From: Streptomyces sp. NBC_01707
Lineage (GTDB): Bacteria; Actinomycetota; Actinomycetes; Streptomycetales; Streptomycetaceae
Direction: 5' to 3'
NCBI RefSeq assembly: GCF_041438805.1
Contig: NZ_CP109190.1
Span: 7,316,001 to 7,380,000, forward strand
DNA: 64,000 nt
The position numbers and the translations under genes are program-made. The notes under the pieces were generated by a model, which saw only the letters and a program-made list of their open reading frames with translations, was not told the origin of the DNA and searched no databases. Shown here one piece after another: positions 3,660-22,305 of the stretch (the stretch's first letter is position 1; the number at the start of each line of letters is the position of its first letter).

Positions 3660-5276
3660 ATGACGCACACTTCGAACAACTCGTCCGTGGCGACGGGCGC
3701 GAGCCGTCGCAGCTTTCTGCGCCAGGTCGGGATCACCGGTGGGGCGGGCGCGATGTTCGCGACCATGGGGGCCCTCGGACTCGCCCCCACGGCCCAGGCC
3801 GCACAACGCGAACCCGCCTTCCGTGCCCCCAGTAAGGGTGACTTCACGCTGAAGGGGAAGGCGGCGTCCAAGGTCGTCGTCGTGGGCGGTGGCATCGCCG
3901 GGCTCGCCGCCGCGTACGAGCTGGGCAAGGCGGGCTACGACTGTACGGTCCTGGAGGCCCGGAGCCGTACGGGCGGCCGCAACTTCACCGTACGCAACGG
4001 GGATTCCACCACCGACCTGTACGGCAACACGCAGACCGCACGGTTCAGCGAGGGCCAGTACATGAACTGCGGGCCCGGCCGGATCCCGCAGTGGATGGTC
4101 ACCCTCGACTACTGTCGCGAACTCGGTGTCCCCATCGAGATGTTCACCAACGTGAACGCCAACGCCTACATCTTCAACGAGAAGGCCGGCATGAAGGCCC
4201 CGGTGCGCTATCGCACCGCCAAGGCCGATGTGTACGGCTATGTGGCCGAACTCCTCTCCAAGGCCACGGACAAGGGTGCCCTCGATCGTCGGATCACCGC
4301 CGAGGACCAGGAGCGACTCCTGGAATTCCTCAAGGAGTTCGGCGACATCGGCGACACGCTCGACTACACCGGCAGCCCCCGCCGCGGCTACCGCATCGAC
4401 CCCGCGGCCGCCGGAACCCCCGGCGAGGAACTCGGCTCCGTGCCGTCCGCCTCCGAGGTCTTCGCCAGCGGCGTCGGACGCTACTTCTCCTTCGAGTTCG
4501 AGTACGACCAGGCCATGCTGATGTTCCAGCCGGTCGGCGGCATGGACCGGATACCCGCGGCGCTCACCCGGGCGATAGGTGAGCGCAGGATCCGTACCGG
4601 CGCCGCCGTCAGCAAGATCACCGACACGGCCCATGGCGTGACCGTCACGTACACCCAGGGCGGACGTACCCGCACCGTCGACGCGGACTACTGCATCGCC
4701 GCCCTGCCGCCCAACATCCTCGCCAAGACCGCCCACAACCTCGGTCCGGCCGTCCAGAGCGCCCTGGAGGCCTGCAAGCCGTCCTCGGCCGGCAAGATCG
4801 GGCTGGAGTACAGGAGCCGCTGGTGGGAGACCGACCACCAGATCTACGGCGGCATCACCGAGACCGACATGGACCTCTCTCACATCTGGTACCCGTCCTA
4901 CGGCCACCAGGGCCGGCGCGGCACCATCATCGGCTACTACAACACCGGTTCCAACGCCGACGCGTACGCCGCTCTCACCCCGCGCGAGAGGGAGGCACGG
5001 GCCATCGCCCAGGGCGTGAAGATCCACGGCGACAAGTACCGTACGGAACTCGCCACGTCGTTCTCCCACCACTGGCGGCAGACCCCGTACCTGGAGGCCT
5101 CCTGGCACTCCCTGTCCGGAGGGCCCGACGCTCCGGCCTTCGCACCGCTCAACCAGGCCGCCGGACGCGTCTACTTCGCCGGTGACTACCTGAGCTACGC
5201 GGATGCCTGGCAGCACGGCGCCTTCACCTCCGCACGGAAGGCGGTCACCGCACTGCACGCGCGGGTTCTGGCGTAA
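3660..5276 (+). CDS. Tat-exported FAD-dependent amine oxidase
   Basis: The 538-aa product carries a twin-arginine signal (SRRSFLRQVG followed by a hydrophobic stretch and AQAA), so it should be exported folded with its cofactor. A dinucleotide-binding motif VVVVGGGIAGLAAAYELGKAG and the motif E-x-R-x-R-x-GGR (LEARSRTGGR) mark a flavin monoamine oxidase. The C-terminus has the flavin-contacting YFAGDYLSYADAWQHGAF segment. Oxidation of an amine or amino acid with release of H2O2 and ammonia is expected; the substrate is unknown. ATG 3660 was chosen over an in-frame ATG at 3615 because GGGAG precedes it and the Tat motif is then correctly placed. A 12-bp hairpin terminator follows. Confidence 0.92.
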   Translation: MTHTSNNSSVATGASRRSFLRQVGITGGAGAMFATMGALGLAPTAQAAQREPAFRAPSKGDFTLKGKAASKVVVVGGGIAGLAAAYELGKAGYDCTVLEARSRTGGRNFTVRNGDSTTDLYGNTQTARFSEGQYMNCGPGRIPQWMVTLDYCRELGVPIEMFTNVNANAYIFNEKAGMKAPVRYRTAKADVYGYVAELLSKATDKGALDRRITAEDQERLLEFLKEFGDIGDTLDYTGSPRRGYRIDPAAAGTPGEELGSVPSASEVFASGVGRYFSFEFEYDQAMLMFQPVGGMDRIPAALTRAIGERRIRTGAAVSKITDTAHGVTVTYTQGGRTRTVDADYCIAALPPNILAKTAHNLGPAVQSALEACKPSSAGKIGLEYRSRWWETDHQIYGGITETDMDLSHIWYPSYGHQGRRGTIIGYYNTGSNADAYAALTPREREARAIAQGVKIHGDKYRTELATSFSHHWRQTPYLEASWHSLSGGPDAPAFAPLNQAAGRVYFAGDYLSYADAWQHGAFTSARKAVTALHARVLA

Positions 5277-5289
5277 CCACCCCTGTGAA

Positions 5290-5318
5290 GGGGCACAGGC
5301 AGGGAATGCCTGTGCCCC
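5290..5318 (+). terminator. Hairpin terminator after the amine oxidase
   Basis: Arms GGGGCACAGGCA and TGCCTGTGCCCC form a perfect 12-bp stem with a 5-nt loop, 13 bp after the stop codon, followed by a T-containing stretch. It separates the oxidase from the PAC2 gene. Confidence 0.8.
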
Positions 5319-5360
5319 GGCGGGCGTTCTTCTCAAGGAACACGAGGAGGAGCGGTAACC

Positions 5361-6299
5361 GTGCCTGATCCGCAGAGTTTGTACGAATGGGAGCCGAAGG
5401 GCCTGGCGGTCGTCGACATGGCGCTCGCGCAGGAGTCGGCGGGCCTGGTCATGCTCTACCACTTCGAGGGGTACATCGACGCGGGTGAGACGGGCGAGCA
5501 GATCGTGGACGGTCTGCTGGAGTCGCTGCCGCACCAGGTCGTGGCCCGTTTCGACCACGACCGCCTCGTCGACTACCGCGCACGGCGCCCGCTGCTGACG
5601 TTCAAGCGCGACCGCTATGCGGGCTACGAGACACCGACGCTGGACGTCCGGGTGGTCCAGGACGCCACCGGGGCGCCCTTCCTGCTGCTGTCCGGGCCCG
5701 AGCCGGACGTGGAGTGGGAGAGGTTCGCCGCCGCCGTCGAGCAGATCGTCGAGCGGCTCGGTGTCCGCCTCGCCGTCAGCTTCCACGGTATTCCGATGGG
5801 CGTCCCGCACACCCGCCCGGTCGGCATCACTCCGCACGGCAACCGCACGGACCTGATGCCGGGCCACCGCAGCCCGTTCGACGAGGCGCAGGTCCCCGGC
5901 TCCGCCGAGGCCCTGGTGGAGTTCCGGCTGATGCAGGCCGGACATGACGTCCTCGGTGTGGCCGCCCATGTGCCGCACTACGTCGCCCGCTCCGCCTACC
6001 CGGACGCCGCACTCACCGCGCTGGAGGCGATCACGGCAGCGACCGGACTGGTCCTGCCGAGCATCGCCCACTCGCTGCGCACGGAGGCGCACCGCACACA
6101 GACCGAGATCGACCGCCAGATCGACCAGGGCGACGAGGAGCTCGTCTCGCTGGTCGAGGGGCTCGAGCACCAGTACGACGCGATCGCCGGATCCGAGACG
6201 CGCGGCAACCTGGTCGCGGAATCGGTCGAGCTGCCGTCCGCCGACGAGATCGGCCTCGAATTCGAGCGGTTCCTCGCCGAGCGGGAGGGCGACGGCTGA
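5361..6299 (+). CDS. PAC2 family protein
   Basis: The 312-aa product belongs to the PAC2 family (proteasome assembly chaperone 2-like), recognised from the N-terminal [34 protein letters not shown], the central [19 protein letters not shown] and the [19 protein letters not shown] segment. Actinobacteria possess a 20S proteasome and encode such proteins, but their role is not established. GTG 5361 is preceded by GAGGAGGAG at a good distance. It lies upstream of coaE, which appears to have its own promoter. Confidence 0.9.
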
Positions 6300-6376
6300 C
6301 GGACCGGCGCGAGCGATGCCGTGACCGGCCGACGGATGAGCCGTGACCGGGCCATGACCGGCCGGGGAGCGCGCAC

Positions 6377-6382
6377 TAGGCT
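6377..6382 (+). promoter_or_regulatory. -10 box for leaderless coaE
   Basis: TAGGCT is followed by exactly seven bases and then the coaE ATG at 6390, with no ribosome binding site. This geometry is typical of leaderless mRNAs in Streptomyces, where transcription starts at the A of ATG. Confidence 0.6.
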
Positions 6383-6389
6383 GCCGACC

Positions 6390-6992
6390 ATGCTGAAAGT
6401 GGGCCTGACCGGCGGCATCGGCGCCGGCAAGAGCGAAGTGTCACGGCTGTTGGTGTCGTACGGGGCCGTGCTGATCGACGCCGACAGGATCGCGCGCGAG
6501 GTCGTCGAGCCCGGGACCCCCGGACTCGAGGCGGTCGTCGACGCGTTCGGCGCAGGCATCCTCACGGCCGACGGCACCCTGGACCGTCCGAAGCTCGGTT
6601 CGATCGTCTTCTCCGACGCCGACCGGCTCGCCGCACTCAACGGGATCGTCCACCCGCTGGTCGGTGCCCGCTCCGCCGAACTGGAGCGGGCCGCAGGCCC
6701 CGACTCCGTCGTCGTCCATGACGTGCCCCTCCTCACCGAGAACGGCCTCGCCCCCCTCTACGACCTGGTCGTGGTCGTGGACGCCGACCCGGAGACCCAG
6801 CTCGACCGGCTCGTACGGCTGCGCGGAATGACGGAGCCCGAGGCCCGCGCCCGGATGGCCGCGCAGGCCACCCGCGAGCAGCGACGCGCCGTCGCCGATC
6901 TGGTGATCGACAACGACGGGCCGCTCGAGGCGCTGGAGCCGCAGGTCCGCAAGGTCTGGGCGGAGCTGACCCGGAGGGCGGCCGCGGGCTGA
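6390..6992 (+). CDS. coaE: Dephospho-CoA kinase
   Basis: This 200-aa protein catalyses the last step of coenzyme A synthesis, phosphorylating the 3'-OH of dephospho-CoA. The P-loop [14 protein letters not shown] is at residues 5-18. [17 protein letters not shown], the [13 protein letters not shown] motif and the LID-like [17 protein letters not shown] region are all canonical. The upstream in-frame ATGs (6321, 6354) lack family similarity. ATG 6390 directly begins the conserved MLKVGLTGG and lies 7 nt behind a TAGGCT box, suggesting a leaderless transcript. Length is normal for the family without the extra GrpB-like domain found in mycobacteria. Confidence 0.96.
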
Positions 6993-7772: not shown

Positions 7773-7853
7773 GGCGATCGCCTCTCCTACCAGGATGGAC
7801 CCACGACTGCGGTTTTGAGGCACGTCGAGACAGATTGTGGGGGACCACCACCC

Positions 7854-8972
7854 GTGAACGGCACACCATGGCGGAACGGCGCCGCCCGAAGGGCCCGGGT
7901 CCGCGGATCGCTGCTGGGCGGTGCGATCGGCGACGCACTGGGCAATCCGGTGGAGTTCCTCTCGCTCGCAGGCATCCGCAGGGCGTACGGGGAAGACGGC
8001 GTCCGGGGCCTCGTCGCGGACGCGGACGGGGCCGTCGGCCGGATCACCGACGACACGCAGATGACCCTGTTCACCGCCGAAGGCCTGATCAGGGCGCACT
8101 CCCGGGCGATGTCGAAGGGCATAGGCGGCGCCGAGACCGCTCTCGTACGGAACGCCTATCTGCGCTGGCTCGACACCCAGAACCACCCGGCACCACCGGC
8201 CCGCGGCGGGGACGACCCCGTACGGACCGGGTGGCTGCGGCAGCAGCGCTTCCTGTACGCGCGCCGAGCCCCCGGCAACGCCTGCCTGACCGGGCTCGCG
8301 GCCGAGCACGTTCCCGACCCCACGGGGCCGTTCGGCCGGCCTGGTCCGGTCAACACCGGGTCCAAGGGATGCGGCACGGTGATGCGGTCCGCGCCCTTCG
8401 GGCTGATCGGTGAGGGGGCGGAGACCGGCTTCGGGCTGGCGTACCGGTGCGCGCAGATCACCCACGGCCACCTGACGGGTGCGTACGCGGCCGGGGTGTT
8501 CGCCGCGATCATCGCTCATCTGATGGAGGGTGACTCGATGCCGGGCGCCGTGCTCCGGGCCATGGAGTTGCTGGCCCGCCACCCGGGACACGAGGAGACG
8601 ACGGTGGCGCTGCGCGCGGCCGTCGACCTGGCCGCGCAGGGCGCGCCGACCGCCGAGAAGGTGGAGTCACTGGGCGCGGGCTGGGTGGCCGAGGAGGCCC
8701 TCGCCATCGCCGTGTACTGCGCGCTTGTGCTGCCGGGCGCCGACCAGGTGGCTCGGGCGCTGCTGCTCTCGGTCAACCACTCGGGCGACAGCGACTCCAC
8801 CGGCTCGATCTGCGGAAATCTGCTCGGCGCCCACCACGCGGACGTGCAACTCCCGACGTCCTGGCTGGTGCTGACGGAGGGACGGGCAGTGATCGCCGAG
8901 CTGGCGGACGATCTGTGCCTGGAGTTCGAGCAGTCGGTGGAGTGGCCGCAGGAGCGCTATCCGGTGTGCTGA
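7854..8972 (+). CDS. ADP-ribosylglycohydrolase family protein
   Basis: The product of 372 aa belongs to the DraG/ARH family, which removes ADP-ribose from protein side chains or small acceptors using two magnesium ions. Visible metal-site motifs are GSLLGGAIGDALGNPVEF near the start, ITDDTQMTLFTAEGLI (the TDDT ligands) and VNHSGDSDSTGSICGNLLG near the end (the DxDxTG ligands). GTG 7854 is preceded by GGGGGA at 9 nt; an in-frame ATG at 7815 has no ribosome site. The substrate (arginine-, serine- or DNA-linked ADP-ribose) cannot be decided from sequence. Confidence 0.92.
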   Translation: MNGTPWRNGAARRARVRGSLLGGAIGDALGNPVEFLSLAGIRRAYGEDGVRGLVADADGAVGRITDDTQMTLFTAEGLIRAHSRAMSKGIGGAETALVRNAYLRWLDTQNHPAPPARGGDDPVRTGWLRQQRFLYARRAPGNACLTGLAAEHVPDPTGPFGRPGPVNTGSKGCGTVMRSAPFGLIGEGAETGFGLAYRCAQITHGHLTGAYAAGVFAAIIAHLMEGDSMPGAVLRAMELLARHPGHEETTVALRAAVDLAAQGAPTAEKVESLGAGWVAEEALAIAVYCALVLPGADQVARALLLSVNHSGDSDSTGSICGNLLGAHHADVQLPTSWLVLTEGRAVIAELADDLCLEFEQSVEWPQERYPVC

Positions 8973-16990: not shown

Positions 16991-17722
16991 GTGGCGAAAC
17001 TCAATCAGATCATCGCAGTGGAGAAAGGCGTCAAGTCCAAGGCTCACCAGGACCTGACGGCGGCGCATCACGGCCTCCAGAAGGCCGGGCTGCTGGCCGG
17101 GATCTCCCGGACCTATCAGCCGAAGGACGAAGAGGGTGAGCAGCTCCCGCCGGAGTCGACACCGGTGCAGATCAAGGCCGAGGACGTGCTGCGGAACACC
17201 GCGGCGACGCTGACCCGGCTCTTCGACGTGACCGCCACGAAGGACTGGGCGAACTGTGCGGCCCGCGCGGATGTGAAGGTCGACGGTCGGGTGCTCGTCG
17301 CCGATGTCCCGGTGTCGTACCTGCTTTTCCTGGAGAAGCAGCTGACGGACATCAACACGTTCGTGCGCAAGCTGCCGGTGCTCGACGCCGCCGAGGCGTG
17401 GACACAGGACCCGTCGACGGACTCCTGGAAGACCGAGCCGGTCCGGACGCTCCGTACGAAGAAGGTGCCCCGCAACCATGTCAAGGCGGAGGCCACCGAG
17501 AAGCACCCGGCGCAGGTCGAGGTGTACTACGAGGACGTTCCGATCGGTTACTGGACGACCGTGAAGTTCTCCGGGGCTCTTCCCGCGCGGCGTATCAATG
17601 AACTCCTGGACCGGGTGGAGAAGCTCCAGCAGGCCGTGAAGTTCGCCCGCGAGGAGGCCAACGGCGTGGAGGTCACCGACCAGCGGGTGGGTGACGCGGT
17701 ATTCGGTTACCTCTTCGGGTAG
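16991..17722 (+). CDS. Conserved protein of unknown function, DUF7873-like
   Basis: The 243-aa soluble, charged protein begins VAKLNQIIAVEKGVKSKAHQ and ends DQRVGDAVFGYLFG. It shows alternating helical and strand-rich parts, no signal peptide, no Walker motif and no zinc cluster. I recognise it as the family listed as DUF7873, found in actinobacteria and, as far as I recall, in actinobacterial phages; its activity is unknown. In-frame codons upstream of GTG 16991 do not fit the family start. It is directly upstream of the two permuted tRNA-like RNAs on the same strand, so a shared role in RNA handling is possible but purely contextual. Confidence 0.85.
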   Translation: MAKLNQIIAVEKGVKSKAHQDLTAAHHGLQKAGLLAGISRTYQPKDEEGEQLPPESTPVQIKAEDVLRNTAATLTRLFDVTATKDWANCAARADVKVDGRVLVADVPVSYLLFLEKQLTDINTFVRKLPVLDAAEAWTQDPSTDSWKTEPVRTLRTKKVPRNHVKAEATEKHPAQVEVYYEDVPIGYWTTVKFSGALPARRINELLDRVEKLQQAVKFAREEANGVEVTDQRVGDAVFGYLFG

Positions 17723-17735
17723 CCGACCATGGATT

Positions 17736-17761
17736 CCCCGGCCACATCGTCACGGCCGGGG
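17736..17761 (+). terminator. Hairpin after the DUF7873-like gene
   Basis: CCCCGGCC (17736-17743) and GGCCGGGG (17754-17761) form an 8-bp perfect stem with a 10-nt loop, 13 bp past the stop codon. There is no T-tract, which is usual for Streptomyces terminators. The second arm happens to contain GCCGGGG, identical to the acceptor strand of the RNA further downstream. Confidence 0.5.
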
Positions 17762-17768
17762 TGCGCGA

Positions 17769-17933
17769 GGAGCGCAAGCTGAAACTGAAGCTTGTCGTGA
17801 CGACGCGGTTCCGGTGGAGGTTCGAGTCCTCCCCCCGGCATTCGGGCCGCACCGATTCGGTCGGTGCGGTCATACGGGCCGGGGTGGCCCAAATGGCAGA
17901 GGCAGACCGCGATCAATCTCAGACTCTTGCTCC
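17769..17933 (+). ncRNA. Circularly permuted tRNA-like RNA 1 (YrlA-type Y RNA candidate)
   Basis: In 5'-to-3' order: anticodon-stem 3' strand CGGTT (17806-17810), variable loop CCGGT, T-arm GGAGG/TTCGAGT/CCTCC (17816-17832), acceptor 3' strand CCCCGGC (17833-17839) and A (17840). Next come a 37-nt insert holding a 9-bp hairpin (17847-17855 with 17861-17869) and acceptor 5' strand GCCGGGG (17878-17884). Then T8-G9, D-arm GCC/11-nt loop with GG/GGC (17887-17903), and anticodon-stem 5' strand GACCG (17905-17909). All helices pair, with one G-U. Outside, GGAGC..AAG (17769-17778) pairs with CTTGCTCC (17926-17933) with a bulge. The acceptor is closed and cannot be aminoacylated as drawn. This is the fold known for YrlA Y RNAs; a permuted tRNA gene is the alternative. 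Confidence 0.6.
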
Positions 17934-17946
17934 AGACTCAGCATTC

Positions 17947-18107
17947 GCCGCCGATCGCCGGATCAAACGGGCTCGGGCCCATGCGCGTCGAGATGTTGGT
18001 TCGACTCCAACCCGCGGAGCTTCGATCTGCGGTCGTCTAAAGGGAGGACGCGGCGACATTACGACTGACCCGGGCTCTTAAAAGTGCCGGCGTGCCGAAT
18101 GGGCGGC
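17947..18107 (+). ncRNA. Circularly permuted tRNA-like RNA 2 (YrlA-type Y RNA candidate)
   Basis: Order: anticodon-stem 3' strand CGTCG (17986-17990), variable AGAT, T-arm GTTGG/TTCGACT/CCAAC (17995-18011), acceptor 3' strand CCGCGGA (18012-18018), 7-nt loop GCTTCGA. Then acceptor 5' strand TCTGCGG (18026-18032), T8-C9, D-arm GTCT/AAAGGGA/GGAC (18035-18049), G26, anticodon-stem 5' strand CGGCG (18051-18055). Seven acceptor pairs include one G-U. The flanks pair: GGGCTCGGG (17969-17977) with CCCGGGCTC (18069-18077), CGCCGG (17956-17961) with CCGGCG (18087-18092), GCCGCC (17947-17952) with GGCGGC (18102-18107), leaving A-rich internal loops. The tRNA-like core with its adjoining helix is 17969-18077; the outer helices are less certain in such GC-rich DNA. 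Confidence 0.6.
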
Positions 18108-18115
18108 ATCACTCA

Positions 18116-18146
18116 GGGCCCGGGGGCCGGCTACGCCCCCGGGTCC
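18116..18146. terminator. Hairpin spanning the stop codon of the C39-like gene
   Basis: Twelve base pairs (18116-18127 with 18135-18146, one G-T) close a 7-nt loop. The minus-strand stop codon (18131-18133) lies in the loop. It can terminate the RNA array on the plus strand and the C39/aminotransferase operon on the minus strand. Confidence 0.55.
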
Positions 18147-18784
18147 GCTCCCGTCTGCGACCCCTGTCGTGTGTCGCCGGCGAGCGACACCCCGCGTCCG
18201 GCGAAGAATCGCTCGAAGTCCGACAGGGGCAGTTCCGCAGCCCGAGTCGTGGCCGTCGTGCCCGACGGGTTGTGGAAATGGATGCCGTTGCCGTCCGGCG
18301 TACGGGACGTCACCAGTACCAGATGCCCGCCCCGGCCCGGAGCGGGCCGTTCCGGATGCCGGATCCCGTAGTGCACCGACGCCATCACCGTCCGCCCCTC
18401 GTCCAGCAGGGCCACGATCTCGTCCGTCGACAGGTGACGGTGGACGGTCGCTTCGAGGCCGTGCACCTCCCGCACGTACTCCGCGAAGGGCGCGTAGACC
18501 AGGCCCCGGATCGCCCCCTCCGCATCCTCCGTGTACGCGCCGTACTTGAGCGCCCCGTCACGCAGGGCGAACAGCGACGGGGCACCGGCGCCGAGCGCCA
18601 TGCGCAGACAAGTCACACCGCACAGGTGACCTGCCCAGCGCGCGTACTCGGCGGGTGAGTCCGCCCCGGAGTCCGCCCAGCCCGGGTCGTCGGCCGGATC
18701 GAGTCCACCCTCGACGATCGGGCCGACGAGCGCGGGCGAGGCGAACTGCGTGTGGACGGGCAGCCGGCAGGCGGGACAGGTCAC
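18131..18784 (-). CDS. C39-like peptidase family protein
   Basis: The 217-aa protein has a papain-like layout: a Cys region HLCGVTCLRMALG (about residues 53-65), a His in GGHLVLVTS (about 153-161) and a following Asn in HFHNPSG, matching the Cys-His-Asn triad of peptidase C39-like proteins. An N-terminal CPACRLPVH pair may bind zinc. There is no signal peptide, so it is probably cytoplasmic and its substrate unknown. The start overlaps the stop of the aminotransferase by 4 bp, so the two are translationally coupled. Confidence 0.82.
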   Translation of the reverse strand: MTCPACRLPVHTQFASPALVGPIVEGGLDPADDPGWADSGADSPAEYARWAGHLCGVTCLRMALGAGAPSLFALRDGALKYGAYTEDAEGAIRGLVYAPFAEYVREVHGLEATVHRHLSTDEIVALLDEGRTVMASVHYGIRHPERPAPGRGGHLVLVTSRTPDGNGIHFHNPSGTTATTRAAELPLSDFERFFAGRGVSLAGDTRQGSQTGADPGA

Positions 18785-21657: not shown

Positions 21658-22305
21658 GTGCGACTCGAACCGATCACCTGGGAACGGCTGGCCGAAGCGT
21701 TCGCCGCGCACGCCGACGGGCTGAGGCCGGCCGACGGCGGGCCGTGGCTCAAGGTCGCCGTCGACGGCGCTCCGGCCGCCCGCACCGGAGAGCTGGCGGA
21801 GCGTGTCGCCGAGGCGCTGCGGATCCGCGGTCGTGCGGTGTTCGTCGTCTCCACCCAGGGGTTCCTGCGCCCGGCGAGTCTGCGGTACGAGTACGGCAAG
21901 GAGGACCCCGACTCGTACTTCGACAGCTGGTTCGACACGGGTGCGCTCTGGCGCGAGGTCTTCGGGCCGCTGGAGGCGGGCGGCAGCGGACGCGTGCTGC
22001 CCGATCTCTGGGACCCGGCGACGGACCGGGCGACCCGCAGCCCGTATCAGCGGCTCCCGGAGGGCGGAGTGCTGGTGGTCCACGGGCCGTTGCTGCTCGG
22101 GCACTGGTTCCCGTTCGACGTGAGCGTCCACCTGCGGCTCTCGCCGGGCGCTTTGCGGCGGCGTACCGAGGACAGCGAGCGGTGGACCCTGCCCGCCTTC
22201 GCGCGGTACGAGGACGAGGTGGCACCCGCCGGGCGTGCGGACGCGGTCGTCCGGGCCGACGATCCGCTCCACCCGGCCTGGACCGGTCTGCCCCAGGAGG
22301 GTTAG
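21658..22305 (+). CDS. Uridine-kinase-like P-loop fold protein with degenerate Walker A
   Basis: The 215-aa product aligns in outline with bacterial uridine kinases (LKVAVDGAPAARTGELAERVAEALR, FLRPASLRYEYGKEDPDSYFDSWFDTGALWREVF, VLVVHGPLLLGHWFPFDVSVHL). The segment where GxxGxGKS/T is expected reads GAPAARTGEL, lacking the invariant glycine-lysine pair. Catalysis with ATP is therefore doubtful or uses altered residues. The C-terminus keeps the RRRTEDSERWT region, as in the kinase lid. GTG 21658 is chosen as the first codon with sensible conservation; the frame remains open upstream without similarity. Confidence 0.8.
   Translation: MRLEPITWERLAEAFAAHADGLRPADGGPWLKVAVDGAPAARTGELAERVAEALRIRGRAVFVVSTQGFLRPASLRYEYGKEDPDSYFDSWFDTGALWREVFGPLEAGGSGRVLPDLWDPATDRATRSPYQRLPEGGVLVVHGPLLLGHWFPFDVSVHLRLSPGALRRRTEDSERWTLPAFARYEDEVAPAGRADAVVRADDPLHPAWTGLPQEG

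Follow-up and report, generated by a model that had tools for sequence, protein, structure and literature searches.

In the stretch of 64,000 nucleotides of the Streptomyces sp. NBC_01707 genome that was analysed here (the window), a gene of the DUF7873 family (PF25283; 16991..17722, + strand), encoding 243 aa from a GTG start at 16991, is followed 46 nt past its stop codon by two tRNA-like modules (TLS1 and TLS2; 17769-18107, + strand), both circularly permuted. The profile search placed the protein in the family with 399.9 bits against a curated cut-off of 27 (Pfam E 5.9e-120); the start was picked from 243-aa relatives and from phage relatives with the same first residue, the list of open reading frames giving 16919. 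The AlphaFold model of the protein is confident (pLDDT 92.3, pTM 0.65); its comparison with PDB folds gave no match at E 0.001 and no telling relative of the protein model was found, which leaves RNA binding by DUF7873 without an independent pointer. The literature search returned no paper on DUF7873.

Both modules run in the order T-arm, acceptor 3' strand, linker, acceptor 5' strand and D-arm, with the two strands of the anticodon stem outermost, all on the + strand. TLS1 consists of the anticodon-stem 3' strand (17804..17809, partner 17906-17911), the T-arm with loop TTCGAGT (17816..17832), the acceptor 3' strand (17833..17839, partner 17878-17884), a linker of 38 nt (17840..17877), the acceptor 5' strand with U8 and a D-arm containing GG (17878..17903), and the anticodon-stem 5' strand (17906..17911); its T stem (5/5), acceptor (7/7), D (3/3) and anticodon (6/6) helices are fully paired with zero G-U. 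The corresponding parts of TLS2 are the anticodon-stem 3' strand (17986..17990, partner 18051-18055), the T-arm with loop TTCGACT (17995..18011), the acceptor 3' strand (18012..18018, partner 18026-18032), a linker of 7 nt (18019..18025), the acceptor 5' strand with U8 and a D-arm containing GG (18026..18049), and the anticodon-stem 5' strand (18051..18055), with T 5/5, acceptor 7/7 (one G-U), D 3/3 and anticodon 5/5 (one G-U) pairs. Thus, all the helices that a preliminary description of this DNA had named are present and fully paired in both modules, and in each the 3' half stands before the 5' half, with the order and the two T-loops that it had reported.

The modules are embedded in a core of three segments, the order S1, TLS1, S2, TLS2, S3 occupying 17769..18107 (+). 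S1 carries the 5' strand of helix P1 (17770..17774, 5/5 pairs with one G-U), the partner of which lies within S2 (17928..17932), and a phased motif, YUNA every 6 nt (17776..17793). S2 and S3 are joined by P5 (17947..17952 with 18102-18107, 6/6 pairs), P4 (17956..17961 with 18087-18092, 6/6 pairs) and P3 (17969..17977 with 18069-18077, 9/9 pairs, two G-U), the 3' strands of which make up S3 (18069..18107), where TTAAAAG is found against the consensus TTAAA[CT]G. The core is flanked on the 5' side, past the stop codon of DUF7873, by a GC hairpin (17736..17761, + strand, 8/8 pairs), visible by eye in many of 30 Streptomyces loci, and on the 3' side by a terminator-like GC hairpin without a T run (18116..18146, + strand, 11/11 pairs, one G-U), the region of which gave no hit in a terminator scan. 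An Rfam scan of the window gave nothing at gathering score and no family convincing for the RNA. Since the thermodynamic minimum of 17736-18150 (-207.5 kcal/mol, versus -194.5 kcal/mol for the fold with the drawn helices) favours another overall fold, the structure is supported by comparison and not by energy.

Evidence for a tRNA fold of the modules

The two modules are conserved and covary. In 35 Streptomyces sequences, all 560 cells of the TLS2 helices (560/560) are paired and both sides have changed in 12 of the 16 pairs, and the covariation score is 0.576 versus 0.205 for shuffled alignments (0/500 shuffles as high), on rows placed by a detector that required the acceptor, T and D helices to be paired almost completely and the D-loop to contain GG (35/35 loci passed). 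The preliminary description had judged the pairing unlikely to arise by chance and had set covariation across Streptomyces as the test beforehand; both expectations were borne out by these values. Because the detector demands pairing and the D-loop GG, the covariation of the acceptor, T and D helices on the rows that it placed, including that of the TLS1 acceptor helix, is partly by construction, and the argument for the fold therefore relies on the controls and on features outside the detector's selection, namely the tertiary pair 15-48 and the anticodon stem, which it neither required nor scored.

Covariation over the whole RNA was computed on 138 loci with two well-spaced modules, the swap tests on 72 representatives and the triplet-run test (below) on 63 of these. 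Every TLS2 among the 72 non-redundant loci retains pair 15-48 (72/72; A-U 49, G-C 23), as do 71/72 TLS1 (A-U 70, G-C 1, unpaired 1). Five-pair anticodon stems occur natively in 35 of the 72 loci for TLS1 and in 46 of the 72 for TLS2, compared with 7.4% and 11.3%, respectively, when the partners were swapped between loci, in addition to the complete pairing of both stems at the window locus.

The preliminary description had taken the region for two tandem RNAs. Two modules are indeed present, but a single composite RNA just after DUF7873 is the better reading of TLS1 and TLS2, their distance being nearly constant (median 91 nt, quartiles 87-94). TLS1 is dispensable, because 7 of the 35 Streptomyces loci have a single module only; in these (L014, L015, L017, L023, L026, L038 and L065), TLS1 is reduced to a short stem or gone, and the flanks and TLS2 are retained.

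The shared core and the linkers

Among the core helices, P3, P4 and P5 between S2 and S3 show covariation with z up to 17, and the native S2-S3 duplex (-26.8 kcal/mol) is 8.5 kcal/mol better than duplexes of swapped partners (-18.3 kcal/mol). The covariation of P1 (z 3.9-4.9) is not above that of unassigned pairs of the same list, and partner changes in P1 are seen by eye in L231, L236, L238 and L253. Pairing of S1 with S2, S3 or itself is not clear, native duplexes being 1-4 kcal/mol better than swapped or shuffled ones. The motif TTAAA[CT]G, or its variant CTCAAG[CT]G, stands 3' of TLS2 in 106 of the 143 two-module loci and 3' of TLS1 in 2.

In S1, a run of at least five ARN/YTN triplets was found in 39/63 loci versus 0.4% of shuffles. 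Such a run looks like alternating K/R-L/F codons, and S1 was considered as a tmRNA-like tag and judged an unlikely one, as it does not look coding in the 35 Streptomyces loci: position 3 is invariant in the first two leucine triplets, the third leucine triplet varies at positions 1 and 3, and in the polar triplets changes fall on positions 2 and 3 and alter the amino acid, the opposite of what selection on a peptide would give. A synonymous excess is likewise absent from S2 in these 35 loci, where mostly positions 1 and 2 vary, as does 3. We read the triplet patterns of S1 and S2 as probable RNA motifs, in S1 the YUNA recurring every six nt.

The linkers closing the acceptor end vary in length (4-50 nt for TLS1 across the 28 two-module Streptomyces loci). 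Position 2 is C in 59/72 TLS1 and 62/72 TLS2 linkers; the first base is mostly A in TLS1 (56/72), and T or G in TLS2 (69/72). Outside Streptomyces the linkers often start with NCCA, a start that is absent from TLS2 of the 28 two-module Streptomyces loci (0/28). NCCA linkers are present in 23 of the 49 modules from 28 loci where the nearby tRNA genes are mostly without CCA. Plain tRNA ends were considered as an explanation of these bases and set aside, the CCA of the modules and that of neighbouring tRNA genes correlating at only 0.30 (40 loci). The C and NCCA exceed the needs of a mere loop; the modules either derive from true tRNA ends or are cleaved to give them, as in permuted tmRNA.

Association of the RNA with DUF7873

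The custom detector of permuted tRNAs was run on the 900 nt downstream of DUF7873 genes. From 241 DUF7873 loci, 238 with at least 350 nt downstream were retained, of which 198 were distinct; they come from scans of which the best-ranked subsets were taken (the best 80 of 465 relatives in the genome scan and the best 80 of 352 in the first viral scan), so that the counts describe a sample. At least one module was found in 191 of these 198 loci and at least two in 143; when the 30 loci fetched by RNA similarity were left out, the numbers were 161/168 and 118/168. Controls gave far fewer matches: 3/594 shuffles, 1/198 reverse complements and 8/198 upstream stretches, and, beyond the stretches downstream of DUF7873, 12 matches in 1.94 million strand-nt. 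Two neighbouring tRNA genes called by ARAGORN explain none of the 335 downstream modules (0/335) and account for 7 of the 10 upstream control matches. The chief type of false positive is represented by G000 C1:6762237-6762319 (L260), where tandem tRNA genes imitate a permuted tRNA. A low-scoring detector match within the window itself (21926-22090), with a linker of 116 nt, was taken as chance.

A covariance model built on the Streptomyces TLS2 only placed a module just downstream of the gene in 19/24 other DUF7873 loci and recovered four of the seven loci missed by the detector (L208, L209, L247 and L254), its matches being unscreened for tandem tRNA genes, with several in L080 lying within a tRNA array. 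Its matches in L084 fall about 1.8 kb downstream of the gene. It gave no module near DUF7873 in L085 and L256, in each of which the detector had one, and neither method gave a module in L098 and L210.

The association was also seen from the side of the RNA. A DNA search with the RNA found matches in 32 of 61 Streptomyces genomes, and in all 30 loci fetched by RNA similarity DUF7873 stands directly 5' of the RNA. PF25283 is likewise present in 32/61 of these genomes, 31 of them in common with the RNA matches; in the 32nd DUF7873 genome (G010) the RNA is also present, as direct inspection of the locus showed (L258, 50.8 bits), and among the 29 genomes without DUF7873 only one (G007) gave a match, of 30 bp (E 9e-4). 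Thus, DUF7873 and the RNA go together. Beyond this pair the neighbourhood is not conserved: among 79 ORFs (of 99 listed, from 23 loci), chosen by length, some of which may be spurious in GC-rich loci, at most two share a family, so that the unit is taken to be DUF7873 plus the RNA. Single cases of other neighbours are an EF-Tu-like gene upstream of DUF7873 in L166 (3763-4959), a Thg1 gene downstream of it in L145 (7584-8339), and, in Rhodococcus phage NiceHouse (L081:6374-7246), a gene for a Band-7-like membrane protein at a short distance 3' of the RNA.

Distribution in bacteria and phages

DUF7873 occurs in 73 of 50,697 phage records, from phages of Arthrobacter, Gordonia, Rhodococcus, Pseudanabaena, Microcoleus, Klebsiella, Vibrio and Rhizobium, among other hosts. 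Among the best 80 of 465 relatives in genomes are those of Nostoc, Cylindrospermum, Ktedonobacteraceae, Anaerolineales, Planctomycetaceae, Lentzea, Actinomadura and others. In the search of the phylum, PF25283 was found in 6 of 296 genomes, all of them Streptomyces, showing that the distribution is patchy. At least three tRNA genes lie in the fetched stretch of 22/72 viral-contig loci, 7/15 annotated records and 0/76 genome loci. A link with RtcB is uninformative, as RtcB is present in 59 of the 61 Streptomyces genomes.

Relation to Y RNA and Ro60

The preliminary description had likened the modules to YrlA-type Y RNAs, the partners of Ro60-like proteins. The closed acceptor and the open anticodon stem do agree with that architecture, and the likeness to YrlA (RF02553) extends to the permuted order, to an anticodon stem extended into another helix and to the possibility of tandem modules. 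However, the putative partner here is DUF7873 instead of Ro60, a single core carries both modules, and, whereas the Rfam consensus of YrlA has a 6-bp helix closed by a 3-nt loop, the present modules have a 7-bp acceptor and linkers mostly with C or NCCA. The Rfam YrlA model gave no match to 17500-18400 of the window even at E 5. Its scores in three relatives, 32.9 bits in phage Mimi, 37.6 in phage KpLz-2_45 and 23.3 in a Nostoc, are below the gathering score of 69 bits (range of the YrlA scores in the three, 18.6-37.6 bits), and such weak matches make a remote kinship of the modules possible.

A gene with a TROVE domain, which the preliminary description had proposed to look for as a sign of Ro60, does exist in this genome (526 aa; L076:8188-9768), but it lies about 68 kb away from the RNA on the same contig, about 22 kb past the end of the window, and has its own pair of tandem YrlA-like RNAs, which precede it at 7777-8130 (52.9 bits, E 2e-10, and 38.7 bits, E 3e-6), also in permuted order. 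This is probably the true Y RNA locus of the genome, and, since even its TROVE-linked YrlA copies score below 69 bits, the gathering cut-off of the YrlA model must be regarded as strict. The tandem arrangement itself, for which the preliminary description knew of no precedent in Streptomyces, is less unusual than it had seemed, given this pair and the tandem yrlBA of Salmonella that passages of a published article describe (PMC7790460). Of this YrlA pair, the detector picks up one and the Streptomyces TLS2 covariance model both, and the detector finds modules beside TROVE in 4 of 11 TROVE loci (L002, L072, L073 and L075), which indicates that both systems use the same kind of module. A second TROVE match is located on the 312-kb contig C2 (L077, 50000-68000); these 18 kb contain no permuted module, and a YrlA search of the 6 kb surrounding the TROVE match was negative at E 0.05.

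Across genomes, TROVE does not follow DUF7873: it is present in 22 of 32 Streptomyces genomes with DUF7873 and in 17 of 29 without it (Fisher p 0.44), is thus without a match in 10 of the 32, and occurs in 10 of 21 DUF7873 genomes outside the Streptomyces set. The RNA is therefore not the Ro60 Y RNA of this genome and has no association with Ro60.

Proposed function and alternatives

Few tRNA mimics are known that are dedicated RNAs with a protein of their own (tmRNA-SmpB and YrlA-Ro60). On balance, it is reasonably likely that the DUF7873 protein and the downstream RNA constitute a ribonucleoprotein not yet named, in which the RNA is a Y-RNA-like scaffold and DUF7873 takes the place of Ro60. 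The region would be transcribed as a single RNA of about 340 nt, in which the core of S1, S2 and S3 would bear the two tRNA-shaped modules, each presumably entered through its anticodon stem and closed at its acceptor end by the linker; with such a closed acceptor and anticodon-stem entry, the modules would look like tRNA to readers of the elbow, acceptor, D-arm or T-arm, without the ability to decode. By analogy with Ro60, we speculate that DUF7873 binds the core, with the phased YUNA repeats as a conceivable site, and that the modules serve as docking places for one or several host factors handling tRNA in processing, modification, decay or charging, which would thereby be tethered or diverted; the effector that may dock on the modules is likewise proposed by this analogy. 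Passages of two articles describe the tethering of Rsr to PNPase by Y RNA in Deinococcus (PMC7790460, PMC8058203), a logic that we infer may carry over to DUF7873, and a review of jumbo phages connects RNA repair with TROVE proteins and a partner resembling tRNA (PMC7824862). No report of the present RNA was found in the literature searched, a set to which the principal articles on bacterial Y RNAs and the review of RNA repair did not belong.

A different function would follow if RNase P and tRNase Z opened the acceptor hairpins, leaving a three-piece RNA with two charged CCA ends that would act on the ribosome in the manner of permuted tmRNA, DUF7873 replacing SmpB; this is possible but unlikely. 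The sequence of elements from the T-arm to the acceptor 5' strand, with the linker between the two acceptor strands, is indeed that of the permuted tmRNA gene (alpha, beta and cyano tmRNA in Rfam), which has a longer helix in place of the anticodon stem, as is the case here. The C at linker position 2 and the frequent NCCA, even where nearby tRNA genes are mostly without CCA, would suit this reading, as would a beta_tmRNA score of 24.8 bits in phage KpLz-2_45 (one of three relatives; cut-off 84). The transcript of permuted tmRNA is cut by tRNA enzymes (PMC11915505). The present RNA differs from permuted tmRNA, however, in its two modules, its full D-arm, the lack of an evident tag frame, the codon-like patterns of S1 and S2 being without synonymous bias and start and stop codons having been judged by eye, and the lack of a consistent G-U at 3-70 (3 of 143 loci in each module). 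Moreover, TLS2 of the Streptomyces loci has no NCCA, the tmRNA models gave no match to 17500-18400 of the window at E 5, and an ordinary tmRNA is present elsewhere in the genome (171.3 bits). In a more general form, host tRNA enzymes would open the permuted domains into three paired pieces with two tRNA 3' ends, charged or bound by translation factors, making the system a third dedicated class of tRNA-mimic ribonucleoprotein in phages and bacteria, a proposal that we regard as doubtful.

A role of the RNA within the DUF7873 mRNA, as an element of the 3' UTR serving in autoregulation of DUF7873 or as a site of cleavage by RNase P, is rather improbable. The place of the RNA directly 3' of the gene on the same strand in 191/198 loci, with a median of 98 nt from the stop codon to the first T-arm, would agree with such a role, but two complete tRNA folds with their tertiary pairs exceed what a processing signal needs, and in Microcoleus phage My-WqHQDG (L084:4747-6901) the candidate modules lie about 1.8 kb downstream of DUF7873, past another ORF (5184-6461).

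Action of the RNA as a bacterial Y RNA (YrlA) with Ro60/Rsr at a distance has an equally low probability in our judgement; the permuted order, the sub-threshold YrlA scores in three relatives and the TROVE genes of this genome speak for it, and the missing YrlA match in the window region, the separate YrlA pair of the TROVE gene and the failure of TROVE to track DUF7873 speak against it. Finally, permuted tRNA genes serving translation, the alternative offered by the preliminary description, or remnants of tandem tRNA genes, are extremely improbable: tandem genes do imitate the pattern, as at C1:6762237 and in most of the upstream control matches, and algal and archaeal permuted tRNA genes likewise have the 3' half before the 5' half, but here the strands of the anticodon stem open into S1/S2 and S2/S3 with no anticodon loop, no downstream module is explained by two ARAGORN tRNAs, and the sole ARAGORN call at the locus, a tRNA-Phe at 17755-17840 that uses the TLS1 3' half (21.2 bits as tRNA-Sec, cut-off 47), is taken as false.

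If the reading of a DUF7873 ribonucleoprotein with a Y-RNA-like scaffold is true, a further tRNA mimic with a protein partner would give a role to a family without an assigned function and add an RNA family that spans several phyla and phages, with some copies inside tRNA arrays. The purpose of the tRNA-like domain of Y RNAs would then become testable in a second system independent of Ro60, and the carriage of the pair by phages hints at a contest for tRNAs or translation during infection.
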